A stretch of 64,000 bases of DNA from NCBI RefSeq assembly GCF_001742145.1, contig NZ_CP015749.1, forward strand, positions 3,348,001 through 3,412,000. Direction: 5' to 3'. Both the position numbers and the translations under genes were made by a program. The notes below the pieces were generated by a model. That model ran no database searches. It was not told the DNA's origin and saw only the letters and a program-made list of their open reading frames with translations. This document shows, one piece after another, positions 8,258 to 52,672 of the stretch (positions are counted from its first letter, which is position 1; each line of letters opens with the position of its first letter). The DNA is from Pectobacterium parmentieri (lineage in GTDB: Bacteria > Pseudomonadota > Gammaproteobacteria > Enterobacterales > Enterobacteriaceae).

Positions 8258-10363
<2,106 letters not shown>

Positions 10364-42615: not shown

Positions 42616-44342
42616 TTTTCCTGTTATGGACGGCTGTCGGTACACCGAATGTGGCCGCTTCCTCTTTTGGTCAGAAACTGTTTGGCAACAGTACGACGTC
42701 ACGGTTTCTGCCCGTCGATGGCGCTTTTGCCTTTGAGTTTCAGCAACAGGGGAACCAGCTTAATCTGCGCTGGGATATCCATCCCGATTACTACCTGTAC
42801 CGTGCGCAAATCAAGATCGAAGGGAACGACGCCACGCTTGGCAAGGTGGAGTTGCCACAAGGCGAAAGCCATAACGACGAGTTCTTCGGTCAGGTCTTTA
42901 TTCTACGGGATCGGCTGGAGCTAGCGGTTCCGATTGAACAGGCCGAGAGCGGTGCAACGGTCAAAGTGACCTATCAAGGCTGCGCCGATGCGGGTTTCTG
43001 CTATCCGCCGGAAACGCGCATCGTTCCCCTCAGCCAGGTGCTTGCTACCACGAGCAGCGACGCGCCGCTCAATACCCTATCAGACAAGGCAAGACCATTA
43101 GACCAGACCGTACCGCCGCAGACCACGCCGATGCCGTTCTCGCCGTGGTGGGCGCTGTTGATTGGCATCGGCGTCGCCTTTACCCCCTGCGTCCTACCGA
43201 TGTATCCGCTGATTGCCAGTTTGGTGTTGGGTAGAAAAGAACAGCTAACACCGCGCCGCACGCTGCTGCTGTCGATGACCTATGTTCAGGGTATGGCGCT
43301 GACCTACACGCTGCTCGGGCTAGTTGTCGCCGCCGCCGGATTACGCTTCCAGGCGGCGCTCCAGCATCCAGCTATCCTGATTGGCCTGTCGGTGATGTTT
43401 GCCGCACTAGCGCTGTCCATGTTTGGCCTCTATACGCTCCAACTCCCATCATCGGTACAAACCCGGCTGACAGAGTGGAGTAACCGTCAGCAAGGCGGCT
43501 CAGTTACTGGCGTATTCTGTATGGGCGCACTGGCAGGGCTAATTTGCTCCCCCTGCACCACGGCTCCGCTTAGCGCCATCCTGCTTTACATCGCCCAGAG
43601 CGGCAACATGCTGGCAGGTGGCGGCACACTTTATCTCTACGCACTTGGCATGGGCTTGCCGCTCATTCTGGTCACGCTGTTCGGCAATAAACTGCTACCA
43701 CGCAGCGGCCCGTGGATGCAGTACGTTAAGGAAGCGTTTGGTTTCATTATTCTGGCGCTTCCGGTCTTCCTGCTGGAACGCATTCTGGGTGAAACGTGGG
43801 GAATGCGGCTGTGGAGCGCACTGGGTATCGCCTTCTTCGGCTGGGCGCTCATGCTGACGCTGCGCAGCAGCAAAGGCTGGATACGTGGCGTACAGCTACT
43901 GCTGCTGGCAGGCGTGGTGATCAGCGCCAAACCGCTGCAAGACTGGATATTTCCTCCGGCTGGCGTGGCGCAAGCCCACACATCAGCACTGAACTTCGCT
44001 CCTGTCGCTAATATTGCCGATCTCAACAGCGCGCTGGCAAAGAGCGCTCAGCCTGTTATGCTCGATCTTTACGCTGACTGGTGCGTGGCCTGCAAAGAGT
44101 TTGAGAAATACACGTTCAGCGACCCGGCGGTGCAAAACCATCTGTCGCGCATCACGCTGCTACAGGCGGATGTCACCGCCAATCGTGAAGAACAGAACGC
44201 GCTGCTGAAAAAGCTACAGGTTTTAGGGTTGCCGACCATCGTGTTTTTTGACGCCCAAGGGAAAGAGATCCCCGGCGCGCGCGTCACCGGTTTTATGAAC
44301 GCTGAACAATTTCAGGCACATTTGCGGAAGTTCAGCCCATAA
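42591..44342 (+). CDS. dsbD: Thiol:disulfide interchange protein DsbD
   Basis: 583 residues (E. coli 565). Signal peptide (about 1-23), N-terminal immunoglobulin-like domain with the redox pair in [12 protein letters not shown], a central eight-helix domain with conserved Cys ([12 protein letters not shown] and [12 protein letters not shown]), and a C-terminal thioredoxin domain with CVAC at 498-501. It carries electrons from cytoplasmic thioredoxin to the periplasm for DsbC and cytochrome maturation. Overlaps cutA by 25 bases. Confidence 0.97.
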
Positions 44343-44384
44343 ACGACACTTTCTATTCGATTTTGTGCTTCTGGAGGAGACCTA

Positions 44385-44960
44385 ATGCAACGGGAAGATG
44401 TTCTTGAACATGCGCTTACTCTACTGGAGCAGCACGGATTTGCCACAACAACACTGGATATGCTGGCGGAGAAACTGGGGGTTCCTGTAGAGGAACTGAC
44501 GCCATTCTGGCCGGATCGGGAGGCGCTGCTGTACGACGGCCTGCGCCATCACAGCCAACAGGTCGATACCTGGCGGCGTCAGTTGCTATTAGACGACGAG
44601 AAAAGCATCGAGCAGAAGCTGCTGGCGCGCTATCAGGTACTGCATGAGTCGGTGAACAAACAGCGTTATCCTGGCTGCTTGTTTATCGCCGCGTGCAGCT
44701 TCTTCCCTGATATCAATCACCCTATCCACCAAATTGCAGAACAGCAGAAGCAGGCTTCTTACCGCTACACCCGAGATTTGCTGGAAGAGCTGGAAACCGA
44801 CGATCCCGAGATGGTAGCACAACAGATGGAACTGATTCTGGAAGGCTGCCTAAGCAACCTGCTGGTCAAGCATCAGGCCGCCAGCATCGCCACCGCCCAA
44901 CGGCTGGCAGAAGATGTATTACGCTTCGCGCTGTGCCGCAAGGGTGGGGCGTTGACCTAA
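44385..44960 (+). CDS. yjdC: TetR-family regulator YjdC
   Basis: 191 residues, same length and neighbour (dsbD) as E. coli YjdC. N-terminal helix-turn-helix ([44 protein letters not shown]) and C-terminal TetR ligand domain containing [22 protein letters not shown]. Ribosome site GGAGGAG. Ligand and targets are unknown. It ends in a four-base overlap with the convergent LysE-type exporter. Confidence 0.93.
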
Positions 44961-46598: not shown

Positions 46599-46674
46599 GC
46601 CCGGATAGCTCAGTCGGTAGAGCAGAGGATTGAAAATCCTCGTGTCCTTGGTTCGATTCCGAGTCCGGGCACCA
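46599..46674 (+). tRNA. tRNA-Phe (GAA)
   Basis: 76-base cloverleaf: acceptor stem GCCCGGA/TCCGGGC with CCA encoded, D arm AGCTCAGTCGGTAGAGC, anticodon stem GAGGATTGAAAATCCTC with GAA at 46632-46634, and T arm CTTGGTTCGATTCCGAG. A truncated P4-type integrase starts 162 bases downstream, so this gene is the attachment site of the island that follows. Confidence 0.98.
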
Positions 46675-46835
46675 CCTTTCCTTTTTTATGCTTCCTTATC
46701 AATCCCTATGTTGTTGCGATTCAATAAGTTGGCGTGAAAATCTTTTCCGATGCGTTTTGATTTATCCCTTCGTATCGGGGAATTTGTGGGTCAGATTGTG
46801 GGTCATTCAGTTCGATGAACGGGAGTGACCCTCAC

Positions 46836-47000
46836 ATGTTAACTGACAGCAAAGTCCGATCCGCGAAACCTCTCGCAAAATCTTACAAACTCACTGACTC
46901 GCAAGGCCTGTACCTCACGGTATCCACCAGCGGCGCTAAGCTATGGTATTTCCGCTATCGCCTCGGCGGTAAAGAGAACCGTCTGGCCTTTGGTCCCTAG
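46836..47000 (+). pseudogene. Truncated P4-type tyrosine integrase
   Basis: 54 codons, MLTDSKVRSAKPLAKSYKLT continuing to GLYLTVSTSGAKLWYFRYRL and GGKENRLAFGP, then a TAG. This is the N-terminal arm-binding domain (DUF4102-like) of P4/SPI-7-type integrases; full-length proteins are about 400 residues and the catalytic domain is absent. It lies directly downstream of tRNA-Phe in the usual orientation for such islands. The sequence after the stop is unrelated, so the gene was cut by a deletion. Confidence 0.88.
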
Positions 47001-47262: not shown

Positions 47263-47515
47263 AGGCAGGCGACCCATTTGATGATTGCCCCACACTTTTT
47301 CATGCTCCCCCTATAGGTGCGCGATTTCCTAAATTTCTGGTTGTTATGAGAAAGGTGAGGCTGCCGTATCCGCCAGAAAGGCTCCCTTATGAGCAGGATA
47401 AGGCGGTTCATGCAGTCGGGATCAAACCGGTTCATGCTCAGGCACCGGTAAATCCAGTCTACTAAACCTCCTTTGTAACAGGATGGGGTAAACGGCCCCC
47501 CTTAAGGAGGTCCCA

Positions 47516-49282
47516 TTATGGCGCTATATGGCTGTATACGTTCTGGTCGTGAAAAACGCCGTTAAGTAACTCAGCCTTCCGCATTTTGCCTTCCAGGACA
47601 AAACCGCAGCGTCGGGCGACTTCATTACTTTTTGTGTTACTGACGGAGCATTTTATTACGAACCGACTTATTAATTTACGGTCCGAATAATATTTCACCA
47701 ACGCGTTCAGGGCTCTGGTTATTACCCCCTGACCCTGCACCCTCATATCGAGCCAGTATCCGATATATGAGGTTTTATTGGCACTATCGATACTGTTAAA
47801 TGACAGTAAGCCCACAGCCGCATCTTTGAACAATATAACATATGTTTTTCCTTCATTTTTCTGATGAGCTAACAGGCAGGCGTCAAGAAAGCCGGACTCA
47901 TCATCTGCTGTTTTAACAAACTGGGGCCATGCCATATATTTGCTGAATTCCTCCCGGTTGTTACCAACCACGCTGAAAAGCTCTACGGCAAAGCGGGAGG
48001 AGGCAGGCACCAGCTGTATGTTTTCATCAACGCAAAGGGTCTGTTCGCCATGCATAAGATCGAGCATGTCAGAAGGTAAAGCTGGCGACGGGAGCCTTGC
48101 CGTGATGATTTCTTTGTTCAGCAAAGCATAAACCGGAGGCCTGGTTCGGGTCCATTCGTTAGCCGTCTGTAAATCATATGCTCCGCAGCCGCGGATAATA
48201 AATAACTGGTTGTCATCAAGATGAAGCGGGCCTCTGGGGAAAAGGCTGTCGTTCTCAAAGCAGTTAAAACCGGCCAGTATCTGACCCGTATCATCTGGGA
48301 TGCGCTTATTGTTACCTAACGGCAAAAGAGAATGATGCCAGTTATGCACGGAAGGTATCCAGTTGATCCCAAGGTTTGTCTGAATAACCTGTGAGTCGTA
48401 GCGGTTTTTCACACTCAGAGTTTTCCCGACCGCATATCCATGATCTTCACTGAGAGTTCTTCCGGGTTCGAAAACGAGTTTCCACTTTTCAGGTAAAGCA
48501 GGATCATACTCAGACAGAACGCTGAAAATGTCCCTAAAAAAAGCTGAAGGCTGAACTGTCGGTACATCCACTACCGGTGAAAAGGAGTCTGCCGGGAATC
48601 CGCTCCCCATATCGAGGTGGCCTCCCTCAGGCATGTTTTTTACCAGAAACGGCAGCCAGTCTCTGAGGCTGTCAGTGACTTTAGAAGGGTTCTCAAGATT
48701 CGATCCGGTATGCAGGTGAAATCCTCTGAGGCTGATATCCGGACAGGATGTCAGGAGAGGGACTATTTCATCCCAGAACTCTTCAGCGGTTACACCGAAG
48801 CGGGAACGCTGTGTGTCACTGTAGAAATGCGACAGCCTTACTCCAACGCCGATTTTCTGGTTGTGACCGGACAGTAAACGGATGATTTCACTTAACTCAT
48901 GAGCACTGTCGACATGGATAAGAGCTCCCTTATCTAGTGCTATGGAAAGATCCTCTGAGTTTTTGTAGGGGCCGTCCAGGATGATCCGATCGCCGGTAAA
49001 GCCGGCCTTAATGGCTAGCTTAAACTCGTCTGCTGAGCAGACTTCTGCACTTAATCCCTCTTCAGCAATCAGGCGCAGAAATATCCCCAGAGAACAGGAC
49101 TTAACCGAAACCGCAATAACGGCATCCGGAAAATACTCTTTACAGGCCGCGGTCAGATGTCGAGCTCGTTCTAGGGCTGCATCGGCATCAAAAATAAAAA
49201 AAGGCCGTTCTGAGTGGGACGGGCGCGCAGCAATCGCTTCAGCCACCGAAATGATGCTCGGGTCAACTATTTTTTGCGCCAT
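47516..49282 (-). CDS. mccE: MccE: PLP decarboxylase fused to GNAT acetyltransferase (microcin C maturation and immunity)
   Basis: 588 residues, two domains as in E. coli MccE. Residues 1-430 form a fold-type III PLP decarboxylase (diaminopimelate/ornithine type). The PLP lysine is K61 in AVSVKSCS; other motifs are HTGSN (191-195), FEPGR (271-275), CFENDSL (341-347) and GAY (367-369). Residues 440-588 form a RimJ/RimL-type GNAT domain with RVQGQGVITRAL (514-525) and NTKSNEVARRCGF (549-561). In E. coli the first half decarboxylates the aminocarboxypropyl group to aminopropyl. The second half acetylates the toxic processed product and so confers immunity. It overlaps mccD by 16 bases and is the last gene of the operon. 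Confidence 0.92.
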   Translation of the reverse strand: MAQKIVDPSIISVAEAIAARPSHSERPFFIFDADAALERARHLTAACKEYFPDAVIAVSVKSCSLGIFLRLIAEEGLSAEVCSADEFKLAIKAGFTGDRIILDGPYKNSEDLSIALDKGALIHVDSAHELSEIIRLLSGHNQKIGVGVRLSHFYSDTQRSRFGVTAEEFWDEIVPLLTSCPDISLRGFHLHTGSNLENPSKVTDSLRDWLPFLVKNMPEGGHLDMGSGFPADSFSPVVDVPTVQPSAFFRDIFSVLSEYDPALPEKWKLVFEPGRTLSEDHGYAVGKTLSVKNRYDSQVIQTNLGINWIPSVHNWHHSLLPLGNNKRIPDDTGQILAGFNCFENDSLFPRGPLHLDDNQLFIIRGCGAYDLQTANEWTRTRPPVYALLNKEIITARLPSPALPSDMLDLMHGEQTLCVDENIQLVPASSRFAVELFSVVGNNREEFSKYMAWPQFVKTADDESGFLDACLLAHQKNEGKTYVILFKDAAVGLLSFNSIDSANKTSYIGYWLDMRVQGQGVITRALNALVKYYSDRKLISRFVIKCSVSNTKSNEVARRCGFVLEGKMRKAELLNGVFHDQNVYSHIAP

Positions 49283-50073
49283 AACTGTATGGTTACCCCC
49301 TGATAGTTGCGTTGATCGTTGAGAGGTTCACGAATAGCAAGATACCGCTCATAAAAGGCGTTCTGAGTGGTTTCGTCCAGATGACGGGTATATTCGTTCT
49401 CAGCGGTTACATAACTCAGCAGGTTTTTCTTAAGTTCATCCCTAGGCTGCGATGACAACTCGTGGTTTTTTTCGTGATATAATTCAAGATCCGCACTGGC
49501 AAAAAAATCCTGCCAGTACTGCAGAGTCCATTCGGGATCGGGCCTGAAACCTATCGCATTGTAAACTCCGTTAATGATTTCTTCGCTGGGGGGGGTTCTG
49601 TAATAAAAATTTGACGTGCAGATAATGCCTTCCGGTTTCAGCACACGGACAACCTCAGCCAGCGCTTTTTCTCTGTCTTGAATAAACGCGAAGTTACATC
49701 CACCGAGAATATGCGTAAAAGTGTCATTGCTGAAAGGAAGACTGCATGCGTCAGACACCTGATAGCGTAATTTATCCTCTGCGCCCAGCGCGGCTGCTTT
49801 TTCACGTGCAGTGCTGATAGCCATTTCAGAAATATCAATTCCTTCAGCAGAAGAACCCGTCTTGCTGAAACAGTATCGGGAGCTGTAACCGGTTGAACAG
49901 GCAAGATCCAGCAGGACCGAGTGATTGCTGAGACCTGCATGTTCAATCCAGTAATTAACGGTGTAGGCACTGCCTGGTGGCGTATTATCCTGCTTCATTA
50001 ACGCCACAAAGTCCGGATAGCTCATGGAGCGGAGATATTCAGGGGTAATGACTTTATCATCATGTTCAATCAT
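49267..50073 (-). CDS. mccD: MccD: SAM-dependent 3-amino-3-carboxypropyl transferase (methyltransferase fold)
   Basis: 268 residues of class I methyltransferase fold. Motif I is LDLACSTGYSSR (55-66), followed by an acidic GIDISEMAI and the post-motif FTHILGGCNFAFIQDREKAL. In the E. coli microcin C pathway MccD transfers the aminocarboxypropyl group of SAM to the phosphate of peptidyl-adenylate, which MccE then decarboxylates. Context fixes the assignment; the fold alone would allow a methyltransferase. Overlaps mccC by four bases (ATGA) and mccE by 16, so translation is coupled. Confidence 0.85.
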   Translation of the reverse strand: MIEHDDKVITPEYLRSMSYPDFVALMKQDNTPPGSAYTVNYWIEHAGLSNHSVLLDLACSTGYSSRYCFSKTGSSAEGIDISEMAISTAREKAAALGAEDKLRYQVSDACSLPFSNDTFTHILGGCNFAFIQDREKALAEVVRVLKPEGIICTSNFYYRTPPSEEIINGVYNAIGFRPDPEWTLQYWQDFFASADLELYHEKNHELSSQPRDELKKNLLSYVTAENEYTRHLDETTQNAFYERYLAIREPLNDQRNYQGVTIQLWRKK

Positions 50074-51305
50074 ATAACTTCCTCATTGTTTTGTTTCTTT
50101 ATCACGGATAACCAGCGAAGGACTACCAGACCACAGAGAAAAAAGGCAACGGTCGGTAATATCAGGTAACTGACTGGAGGTATTCTTTCAGGAAGAAATG
50201 AAATAATACTCAGTACGATGACTGAAAAAATGCGGCTACTGAATGATACCGCGCCGACAATGCCTGAAATATAAGCAGCCTGCTGGTCGTTCAGCTCGGA
50301 AAAGAAAAGACTCTTTGCGCCAATCGGTACGGTGCAGATAAAGCCATGTATCAGGGAAAACGCGATGACGGCCAGAAAGGTCTGCCCGGCAGTGACCAGT
50401 CCATATAAAGCAATGCACATAACCGAAGAGATAAATGAGAAGTGCTTTATCAGTTTTGTATATTTCTGATCGGACACATGATGCCGAGACATAATTGAGT
50501 TAGCGATATACTGCGATGAGAATGCGCCTATGTGACAGAGCATAAGGACCAGCAATTGTGCGGTATCCATGTGCCCGTGGCCTTGCCTGGAAAGTATGAT
50601 TGGTTGCCAGAAATGAAAAATGATCTGGATACCGGCACCGAAAAAACAGGTCAGGAGAATAAACTGAGAACCGCCCGCTGTATTTTTAAAGATCCATAAT
50701 GTTTCCTGCGCATTCTGAACAAAACTTTTCTTTTTATGACCTTCGTTTAACACACTGTCTTTTTCAGGGATGATTATAAAGGTAAGTGTAATGACCACCA
50801 TCATCAACCCCGAAATTATATAGCCCGTAGCGTAATTTCCCGAAAAGTAAATCGTGGCAATGCCGGCTATGCCTGTGATGACGCTTCCGAAGGAGTTAAC
50901 CTTCTGGCAAAGATGAGCATAATATGAAAATAAGTCACTCTCATTTTCAAGAGAATGGTATACCCATCCGTTAATTGCCCCGGTGATCAGGCAGATGCCT
51001 GCTGCATATACAACCTCAGAAAGGGCGAGGTAAACCATATCCGGCGACTGCAGGCAAAGGGGATAGAATAAAGCCGTGAGAACAACCCCCGCCACGACAG
51101 AGTATTTTCTGTGATATTTGTCCGCCAGTACAGCACACGGAAAATCGAGAGCTAGAATTGTTACTGAAAAAATCACCTGCAGCATTGCAAGCTGTGGCAG
51201 ACTGACACCGGTAGATAACAAAAATATAGCGTGATAAACACCTATCAGCATACGAACGGCATTATATGAACCGTAAGTGACTGACAGAGTTTTCGGGATG
51301 TTCAT
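50070..51305 (-). CDS. mccC: MccC: MFS exporter of the microcin C-like peptide
   Basis: 411 residues with about 12 membrane helices, major facilitator superfamily. The loop after helix 2 has the family A-motif in variant form (FPCAVLADKYHRKYSVVAG). In E. coli MccC exports the mature microcin and contributes to self-protection. The gene lies between mccB and mccD, overlapping each by four bases. Export of this particular product is inferred from context. Confidence 0.88.
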   Translation of the reverse strand: MNIPKTLSVTYGSYNAVRMLIGVYHAIFLLSTGVSLPQLAMLQVIFSVTILALDFPCAVLADKYHRKYSVVAGVVLTALFYPLCLQSPDMVYLALSEVVYAAGICLITGAINGWVYHSLENESDLFSYYAHLCQKVNSFGSVITGIAGIATIYFSGNYATGYIISGLMMVVITLTFIIIPEKDSVLNEGHKKKSFVQNAQETLWIFKNTAGGSQFILLTCFFGAGIQIIFHFWQPIILSRQGHGHMDTAQLLVLMLCHIGAFSSQYIANSIMSRHHVSDQKYTKLIKHFSFISSVMCIALYGLVTAGQTFLAVIAFSLIHGFICTVPIGAKSLFFSELNDQQAAYISGIVGAVSFSSRIFSVIVLSIISFLPERIPPVSYLILPTVAFFLCGLVVLRWLSVIKKQNNEEVI

Positions 51306-52366
51306 GAAAGTTCACCGCAGACTATACACTTTGCATTTTTCGTAAGAGGCCTTTCCTCGATAAAAAGTCGATCGCTCCAGATCCCTACGCGCCGATTGAC
51401 TGAAAGAGGCTGCCCGTAGCCACCTAGAAACTTTAAAACATCGTTTGCGCACAGCGCAGAAGTGAGGGCATTCACTGGCGGAAAGGTTGCCACCTTGAAA
51501 TTGTTATTAATTGCCCTGCAAGCTTCTTCTATTCTTTTGTCCTTTGTTTCAGGCAGATCGCCCACAGTGGAATGGCAGGCATAACAGCCGGTTTCTCCCG
51601 GTATATATAGCGGGCCGAAAACGGCAATGTCATTAACATAACCCGCATTGATGTATGCCTGACCGTTTTTAACGCACCACTCATTTAACCATGGCACAAG
51701 ATAATAAGGCTCGTCAGCTGAAATGATCCAGATATCGGCTTTTGGCAGCCGCGATATGTCTGATTTAGCTCCGATGGTCATTTGTATTTCAGAAATAACT
51801 GTGCTGCTGTTTCTTTTTTTCAGTTCTCGCATAAGCACGGACGTTTTAGGGCAGCCAATGTCACCCTCGGTAAATAAAATTTGACGGGTGAGGTTCGTCA
51901 TTTCAACCTCATCATTATCAACTAGAATAATTTCACCTACACCTGATGTGGCCATTATTGTCGAAACATGATTTCCTACCCCTCCGCATCCTAAAATAAG
52001 AACTTTCTTTTCCGATAGCCTGTTCTGTATAACCTCAGGATCGACACCATAACTCTGATAGTGCAGGTGATTGCGGGAATATCGATTCAGGAAAATATTA
52101 TCCGAGGTTTCAGCAGGCATCAGAAAGTAATTTGATATAAGGAAGTCGAATGCGCGATCAAACACCTCTTTACTCATCCGCTCGGCAACGTGCTCGTATG
52201 CTTCAGCTACGGTTTTTTTTTCAGTCCACTGTGAAGCAGCCAGAACAAGGTTTTCCCAGTACGTTCTGTCAGTGATGATATGCTGTTTTGAGCCGGCACC
52301 AAATATTGCATCATTCGGACGTAAAAGCACCCGTGTATATTTCCCTAATAAATATTTCTGCTCCAT
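51302..52366 (-). CDS. mccB: MccB: ThiF/E1-like peptide adenylyltransferase
   Basis: 354 residues, close to E. coli MccB (350) and clearly alike along the whole length: NRYSRNHLHYQSYG, ILGCGGVGNHVS (nucleotide loop GCGGVG 126-131), ILVDNDEVEMTNLTRQILF, AYINAGYVNDIAVFGPLY. Zinc-binding Cys pairs C261/C264 and C347/C350 are intact. N-terminal residues 1-90 form the peptide-clamp domain. The enzyme turns the C-terminal Asn of the heptapeptide into an N-P-linked adenylate through a succinimide intermediate. It lies 68 bases after mccA; a 7-bp-stem hairpin lies between. Confidence 0.96.
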   Translation of the reverse strand: MEQKYLLGKYTRVLLRPNDAIFGAGSKQHIITDRTYWENLVLAASQWTEKKTVAEAYEHVAERMSKEVFDRAFDFLISNYFLMPAETSDNIFLNRYSRNHLHYQSYGVDPEVIQNRLSEKKVLILGCGGVGNHVSTIMATSGVGEIILVDNDEVEMTNLTRQILFTEGDIGCPKTSVLMRELKKRNSSTVISEIQMTIGAKSDISRLPKADIWIISADEPYYLVPWLNEWCVKNGQAYINAGYVNDIAVFGPLYIPGETGCYACHSTVGDLPETKDKRIEEACRAINNNFKVATFPPVNALTSALCANDVLKFLGGYGQPLSVNRRVGIWSDRLFIEERPLTKNAKCIVCGELS

Positions 52367-52393
52367 GTGTCCCTCTCAATCAAAGAATATGGA

Positions 52394-52420
52394 CGCCCTC
52401 CACAATTATGTTAGAGGGCG
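52394..52420 (-). terminator. mccA-mccB intergenic stem-loop
   Basis: CGCCCTC and GAGGGCG form a perfect 7-bp stem with a 13-base loop between mccA and mccB. On the minus strand it is not followed by a T-run, so partial termination or 3'-end protection of a short mccA RNA is more likely than full termination, as reported for E. coli mcc. On the plus strand it is followed by seven Ts and would terminate transcription coming the other way. Confidence 0.7.
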
Positions 52421-52434
52421 GTTTTTTTCACTAA

Positions 52435-52458
52435 TTAGTTATTAGTTGTATGTTCCAT
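52435..52458 (-). CDS. mccA: MccA: heptapeptide precursor MEHTTNN of a microcin C-like antibiotic
   Basis: Eight codons on the minus strand: ATG GAA CAT ACA ACT AAT AAC TAA. The start is preceded at five bases by a perfect Shine-Dalgarno AAGGAGG (52464-52470). Like E. coli MccA (MRTGNAN) it is exactly seven residues long and ends in Asn, the residue adenylated by MccB. It is the first gene of the operon, directly before mccB, as in every known mcc locus. The sequence of the other five residues differs from the E. coli peptide. The gene is too short for automatic ORF callers. That it is translated is inference, but length, terminal Asn, ribosome site and position all agree. Confidence 0.88.
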   Translation of the reverse strand: MEHTTNN

Positions 52459-52512
52459 GGGATCCTCCTTAATAGTCTTAATTTATTAAATTGCCACCTA
52501 TGTGACCCAATA

Positions 52513-52575
52513 ATCATTGAATATCTGTCGGCTTTTGTAAATGAGAATGATACTTATTCCGTGATCTTTATCTCA
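52513..52575 (-). promoter_or_regulatory. mcc operon promoter with CRP-like and Fur-like sites
   Basis: On the minus strand: -35 TTTACA (52541-52536), 17-base spacer, -10 AATGAT (52518-52513), start expected near 52506. A CRP-like site (plus strand CGTGA-TCTTTA-TCTCA, 52560-52575) is then centred at -61.5, the classical class I position. Between them, at 52540-52558, AATGAGAATGATACTTATT closely resembles a Fur box and touches the -35 element. Activation by CRP is known for E. coli mcc; iron control is inference from this sequence. Confidence 0.55.
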
Positions 52576-52612
52576 AAATAAATTTAACTATAACCTTTTG
52601 TTACTTTTATTC

Positions 52613-52672
52613 TGTAGTGTGATTTTTCATTTTGTGGTGTGATTTTTCATTCTGTGGTGTAGTTTTTAATTA
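52613..52672 (-). repeat. Three 20-bp tandem repeats upstream of the mcc promoter
   Basis: Units TGTAGTGTGATTTTTCATTT (52613-52632), TGTGGTGTGATTTTTCATTC (52633-52652) and a diverged third (52653-52672). The first two differ at two positions. The 20-base period is close to two helical turns, so the same face of DNA repeats, as for cooperative binding of a regulator. The rest of the interval to 52901 is AT-rich and holds no gene. Confidence 0.85.

Follow-up and report, generated by a model that had tools for sequence, protein, structure and literature searches.

The locus considered here raises the question of whether a cluster of minus-strand genes in Pectobacterium parmentieri (47516..52458 of a 64,000-nucleotide stretch of contig NZ_CP015749.1, positions 3,348,001 to 3,412,000, hereafter the window) makes a peptide-nucleotide antibiotic, and on which peptide. 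Microcin C is the model for antibiotics that are carried into cells by a peptide, and a preliminary description of the window had proposed a complete microcin C-like operon with a new-looking heptapeptide precursor. The cluster is very probably an mccABCDE operon, gained by horizontal transfer, whose product is a peptide-nucleotide antibiotic of the microcin C type with the heptapeptide MEHTTNN as its carrier. The peptide frame, gene order, intact frames, protein families, recurrence across loci and horizontal movement are read from the sequence, and every chemical step, the export, the target and the immunity are carried over from the Escherichia coli pathway.

The precursor gene, mccA (52435..52458, minus strand), which was identified from its frame, a shuffle test and orthologous heptapeptides at related loci, reads ATG GAA CAT ACA ACT AAT AAC TAA from 52458 to 52435 and encodes MEHTTNN. 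Five bases 5′ of its ATG lies the Shine-Dalgarno sequence AAGGAGG (52464..52470, minus strand), the identical seven bases being found in Pantoea brenneri, a member of another genus, and in G866, a genome of the window's family. The 24-base gene with a Shine-Dalgarno sequence and seven residues ending in Asn therefore lies exactly where it was first described, and a short Asn-ending precursor with its own ribosome-binding sequence directly upstream of mccB, which is a feature of microcin C operons, is present. The pattern was defined as a Shine-Dalgarno sequence in any of four forms, a spacer of 4-9 bases, an ATG, five sense codons, an Asn codon and a stop. Dinucleotide shuffling of the 500 bases upstream of mccB produced it in 11 of 20,000 sequences, and a search of both strands of the whole window found it at a single site, mccA itself (two listings, one for each of two Shine-Dalgarno registers). 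The genes were originally said to overlap in the canonical order; the order is right and mccB, mccC, mccD and mccE do overlap on the same strand (by 4, 4 and 16 bases), but mccA is separated from mccB by 68 bases.

The four genes that follow, all on the minus strand, have intact frames of 354, 411, 268 and 588 residues. The product of mccB (51302..52366) is assigned by Pfam and NCBIfam to the ThiF-type adenylyltransferases and is predicted to adenylate the C-terminal Asn; its best match in the PDB is E. coli MccB (3h5n, E value 4.3e-118), the next molecule is ThiF (1.6e-18), and the alignment with 3h5n takes in both CxxC pairs as well as the stretches GCGGxGNH and TNLTRQ. The enzyme is therefore ThiF/E1-like, with E. 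coli MccB as its closest counterpart. The gene mccC (50070..51305) encodes a predicted exporter of the major facilitator superfamily (Pfam), the class of MccC exporter found in microcin C operons, and mccD (49267..50073) encodes an S-adenosylmethionine-dependent transferase (Pfam methyltransferase) that by homology would serve the aminopropyl step. In the product of mccE (47516..49282), a pyridoxal phosphate-dependent decarboxylase domain is fused to a GNAT acetyltransferase (Pfam, NCBIfam and PDB), and the C-terminal part matches the MccE acetyltransferase 3r95 (1.7e-47). The genes for MccD and for a two-domain MccE of the E. coli subtype, in which these proteins carry out aminopropylation and acetylation, are thus present. 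MccB, MccC, MccD and MccE are 48, 47, 58 and 43% identical, respectively, to their counterparts on the plasmid of E. coli ATCC 25922 (L015), where mccABCDEF has the same A-B-C-D-E order, an Asn-ending heptapeptide, a Shine-Dalgarno sequence and a hairpin between mccA and mccB. The E. coli system differs from that of the window in being plasmid-borne, in its peptide (MRTGNAN), in the 43-58% identity of its proteins and in possessing the S66 peptidase gene mccF. The operon is therefore complete in the sense of mccABCDE, but the word does not extend to mccF, an accessory immunity gene of the E. coli subtype that takes no part in synthesis and for which no match was found.

By analogy with the E. 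coli pathway, the ribosome would produce formyl-MEHTTNN, MccB would adenylate its C-terminal Asn via a phosphoramidate bond, and MccD together with the N-terminal domain of MccE would add an aminopropyl group, whereupon the aminopropylated peptidyl-adenylate would be exported by MccC. Sensitive bacteria would import the compound, their peptidases would remove the peptide, and the freed aspartyl-adenylate mimic would block aspartyl-tRNA synthetase. Self-protection would be provided by MccC export and MccE acetylation rather than by MccF.

The microcin C-like reading is borne out where sequence can test it, because Asn-ending heptapeptides recur before relatives of MccB from 90% down to 32-33% identity with that of the window. 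A scan of genome_contigs, which reaches close relatives, returned five related loci, of which four belong to Bartonella and the fifth to P. brenneri. P. brenneri LMG 5343 (MIEI01000126.1, L006) carries the same five genes, 88% identical in nucleotide sequence over 5.2 kb, with the same Shine-Dalgarno sequence, gap hairpin and CRP-like site; its MccB is 90% identical to that of the window, but the peptide at the same place is MDHSMNN. We know of no experimental work on this cassette. Searches at E <= 1e-30 of 392 genomes of the window's family gave four MccB matches, the window included. G866 (L089) has mccABCDE in the same order with MccB, MccC, MccD and MccE 69, 72, 73 and 66% identical to those of the window, and differs from it in having the peptide MDHSMNN. 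The peptides MISIASN and MISSGSN precede the MccBs of G668 (L090) and G877 (L091), which are 40-44% identical to that of the window; each of these two MccB matches contains one in-frame stop and the MccC match is weak. E. coli MccB is 48-49% identical. Among 394 genomes of the order, MccB was matched at E <= 1e-35 in two, the window and G247, whose MccB is 32-33% identical. The G247 locus (L080), in a genome of 2.1 Mb, has mccB at 8764-9807 on the minus strand (32% identical), the peptide MRGRRLN, a strong Shine-Dalgarno sequence, a strong gap hairpin (z -3.9) and, after mccB, a transporter that matches MccC weakly; by these features it is a microcin C-like locus.

Bartonella MccBs (L022-L029) are 66-69% identical to that of the window and are likewise preceded by M-D-H...N heptapeptides. 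MccB matches at E <= 1e-30 were found in 26 of 71 genomes of the genus, and in 11 of the 26 an Asn-ending heptapeptide stands before mccB: MDHIGFN in four, and MDHMGCN, MDHRGFN, MDHIFCN, MDHLECN, MDHSECN, MDHTECN and MDRIGFN in one each. Across the related loci such heptapeptides lie 66-84 bases before the estimated start of mccB, which for Bartonella was placed from the first matched residue. The MccA-MccB pair of B. washoensis has reportedly been shown to support adenylation in vitro. Two Bartonella loci that were read over 9 kb matched only mccB and mccC, and not mccD or mccE; the five-gene design of the window is therefore closer to that of E. coli than to that of its nearer Bartonella kin. 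Taken across P. brenneri, G866, Bartonella, E. coli, G668, G877 and G247, these peptides indicate that an Asn-ending heptapeptide is usual and that the window is one of a group whose peptides have the form M(D/E)H...N. The impression of a new peptide accordingly holds for the exact sequence MEHTTNN, which differs from the peptides at all other related loci read in this analysis, but not for its type, which is common to P. brenneri, G866 and Bartonella.

The 32 MccB matches on plasmids are all less than 60% identical to the window, E. coli genomes contained no near match to the cassette, no MccB relative was confirmed in viral_contigs, where the scan extends to close relatives only, and none was found at E <= 1e-20 in 50,697 phage records. 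One viral contig (L016) matched a degenerate mccA pattern, had no mccB match and was taken as a chance occurrence. The IncFII plasmid NZ_CP014997.1 of Salmonella Weltevreden carries a full-length mccE (L001, 8002-10091) that is 90% identical to that of the window. Of mccD only the last 112 residues stand before it, and mccB and mccC are unmatched within 18 kb; this mccE looks like an orphan of the immunity type, and the same stretch is found, whole or in part, in 16 Salmonella plasmid records.

The operon probably moved horizontally between genera and into a variable slot at a tRNA-Phe gene. The cassette common to P. brenneri (47387..52614, minus strand, by alignment) is 88% identical, and the shared stretch stops at these two positions, beyond which the flanks differ. 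The adjacent chromosome matches P. brenneri at only 68% identity over 43123-44941, which covers most of dsbD and the adjoining gene, and it is from this difference that movement between genera is deduced; the window's dsbD is 67% identical to that of E. coli. Of 24 further genomes of the window's genus examined, none has mccB at E <= 1e-40, and at E <= 1e-30 it occurs in one of 61 genomes of P. brenneri's genus, namely P. brenneri itself. The tRNA-Phe gene (46599..46674, plus strand) marks the beginning of the slot by tRNA call and sister comparison. In all four sister genomes compared, the common sequence on the tRNA-Phe side runs to 46674-46675, or as far as 46999 in the case of G015; in two of them it is common again on the right from about 54000; the other two gave no right-side match within the 16-17 kb taken. 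A 61-residue frame at 46815..47000 (plus strand) matches the arm-type DNA-binding domain Arm-DNA-bind_3 and is the stub of an integrase. No attR is claimed, because the last 14-24 bases of the tRNA have no second copy in the window at <=2 mismatches. Between 46676 and 54000 (L072, L073) the slot is occupied in G015 by an AAA ATPase and a subtilase and in G001 by a Fic protein. Four pectate lyase matches were also recorded, three of them clustered, which is in keeping with a host from a soft-rot genus such as Pectobacterium.

Several predicted elements surround mccA. A hairpin with a GC-rich stem and no U-run after it is predicted between mccA and mccB (52395..52419, minus strand; z -3.6 for the 68-base gap), and a second (52369..52394, minus strand), also predicted in P. 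brenneri, would cover the Shine-Dalgarno region of mccB and may thereby act on its ribosome-binding site. A simple hairpin was predicted in the gap at nine of ten loci folded (z-scores from -4.7 to -0.8, some of the pieces including a few flanking bases), with stem sequences that differ between groups; in L026 the pairing of lowest energy is another and longer one (z -1.5), and the hairpin of G866 is weak (z -0.8). In E. coli the gap contains a terminator that keeps mccA RNA abundant. Upstream, a CRP-like site, TGAGATAAAGATCACG (52560..52575, minus strand), agrees with the consensus at 8/10 bases and has its centre 109 bases before the ATG; the P. brenneri site has the same position and the same 8/10 score, the E. 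coli site lies 90 bases before the ATG with 7/10, and two further 7/10 matches occur within the same 300 bases of the window. Beyond the candidate site lie 3.3 copies of a 20-bp unit (52605..52671, minus strand, by repeat search), mostly outside the stretch common to P. brenneri, and no other copy of the unit occurs in the window at <=3 mismatches.

Some observations weigh against a functional operon of this kind. A consensus terminator scan called no terminator at the window's mccA-mccB hairpin; because of this and of the missing U-run, a role of the hairpin as a terminator keeping mccA RNA abundant is likely but unproven. The window's genome gave no hit to E. coli MccF at E <= 1, although that search had no positive control. 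Decay of mcc loci is common in Bartonella, though it is not seen in the window: six of the 26 Bartonella loci have an altered mccA frame (MDYRNYNA, MDHTECNE, MDHTGCNE, MDHPEFH, MDHPKFK and MHHRGL) and nine have none in the 170 bases examined (in at least five of these the MccB match began deep inside the protein, so that the stretch was possibly the wrong one), and nearly all of these 15 have a broken or partial mccB. In seven Bartonella loci MccB matches over its whole length with no stop; the peptide is MDHxxxN in six of these and MDYRNYNA in the seventh. Eight-codon frames ending in Ala or Glu instead of Asn occur at L024, L031 and L037; at L024, where MccB is full-length and free of stops, the choice lies between a locus in decay and a terminal Asn that some systems can do without.

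The genes of the window and of P. brenneri differ mainly at synonymous sites, the proportions of nonsynonymous and synonymous differences (pN/pS) being 0.053/0.330 for mccB, 0.039/0.313 for mccC, 0.041/0.301 for mccD and 0.055/0.330 for mccE; the operon is under purifying selection. The enzymes are 89-93% identical, and the peptides differ at three of seven residues. The mccA genes of P. brenneri and G866, by contrast, are identical at 24/24 bases despite mccB DNA that is only 66.7% identical, and the chance of zero change in 21 mccA bases at that mccB rate is 0.0002. In a tree of MccB with 11 rows, of which the E. coli row begins four residues before MDYILG, the window and P. brenneri are paired with support of 80/71, which is not strong, and G866 groups with Bartonella (96/93); G866 is taken as the outgroup also because MccB is 90% identical within the pair and 69-71% identical to G866. 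Relative to this outgroup, four of the 21 coding bases of mccA are derived in the window; they lie in three codons and give the substitutions D2E, S4T and M5T. In mccB the count is 45 in 1,062 bases (82 with unpolarised sites), and 13 MccB residues are derived. MEHTTNN therefore looks derived from MDHSMNN. The Poisson chance of the mccA excess over mccB is 0.013, or 0.08 when unpolarised sites are counted, which suggests that the carrier peptide changed under selection in the window's lineage, and no more than suggests it, because a single pair of loci is compared. The fuller proposal, that selection recently turned the uptake peptide into MEHTTNN by altering residues 2, 4 and 5 of ancestral MDHSMNN on an almost unchanged enzyme set, shifting the bacteria that import the compound or the immunity or peptidase that recognises it, is put forward tentatively and as the less probable outcome.

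The same four changes may be read as drift, in which case MEHTTNN would be a poor or silent substrate in an intact operon that is kept for MccC- and MccE-type resistance to foreign microcin C-like compounds. The Salmonella plasmid, where mccE is accompanied by only a piece of mccD, indicates that parts of the operon can persist apart from mccB and mccC and so lends some support to a resistance role. The changes, however, preserve the length, the start, His3 and Asn6-Asn7, the Shine-Dalgarno sequence is unchanged, and resistance alone leaves unexplained why the constraint on mccB, mccC and mccD is as strong as that on mccE; this explanation is thus unlikely. A cytidine-type compound in place of the adenosine type might be proposed, since MccB homologues differ in their choice of nucleotide, but cytidine-type loci (Yersinia, Bacillus) have longer precursors and extra genes, whereas the window has a seven-residue precursor and the mccABCDE set of E. 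coli, and the idea is quite improbable. The least credible explanation of all is that MEHTTNN arises from a leader or from a frame open by chance, with MccB acting on something else. Short frames are common in AT-rich DNA, but this pattern is scarce among shuffles, mccA is conserved base for base between P. brenneri and G866, and Asn-ending heptapeptides recur at a similar distance before mccB at related loci.

With the operon read as a producer of a microcin C-type antibiotic on MEHTTNN, its interest lies in a five-gene set that has apparently moved between genera and settled on the chromosome with no detectable mccF, and in a peptide that has apparently changed, although P. brenneri and G866, the nearest relatives with all five genes, have it in identical form. 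The loci of the window and P. brenneri form a natural pair, with enzymes 89-93% identical and peptides that differ at three of seven residues, and the effect of the carrier on acceptance by the enzyme, on uptake and on killing is therefore directly testable.

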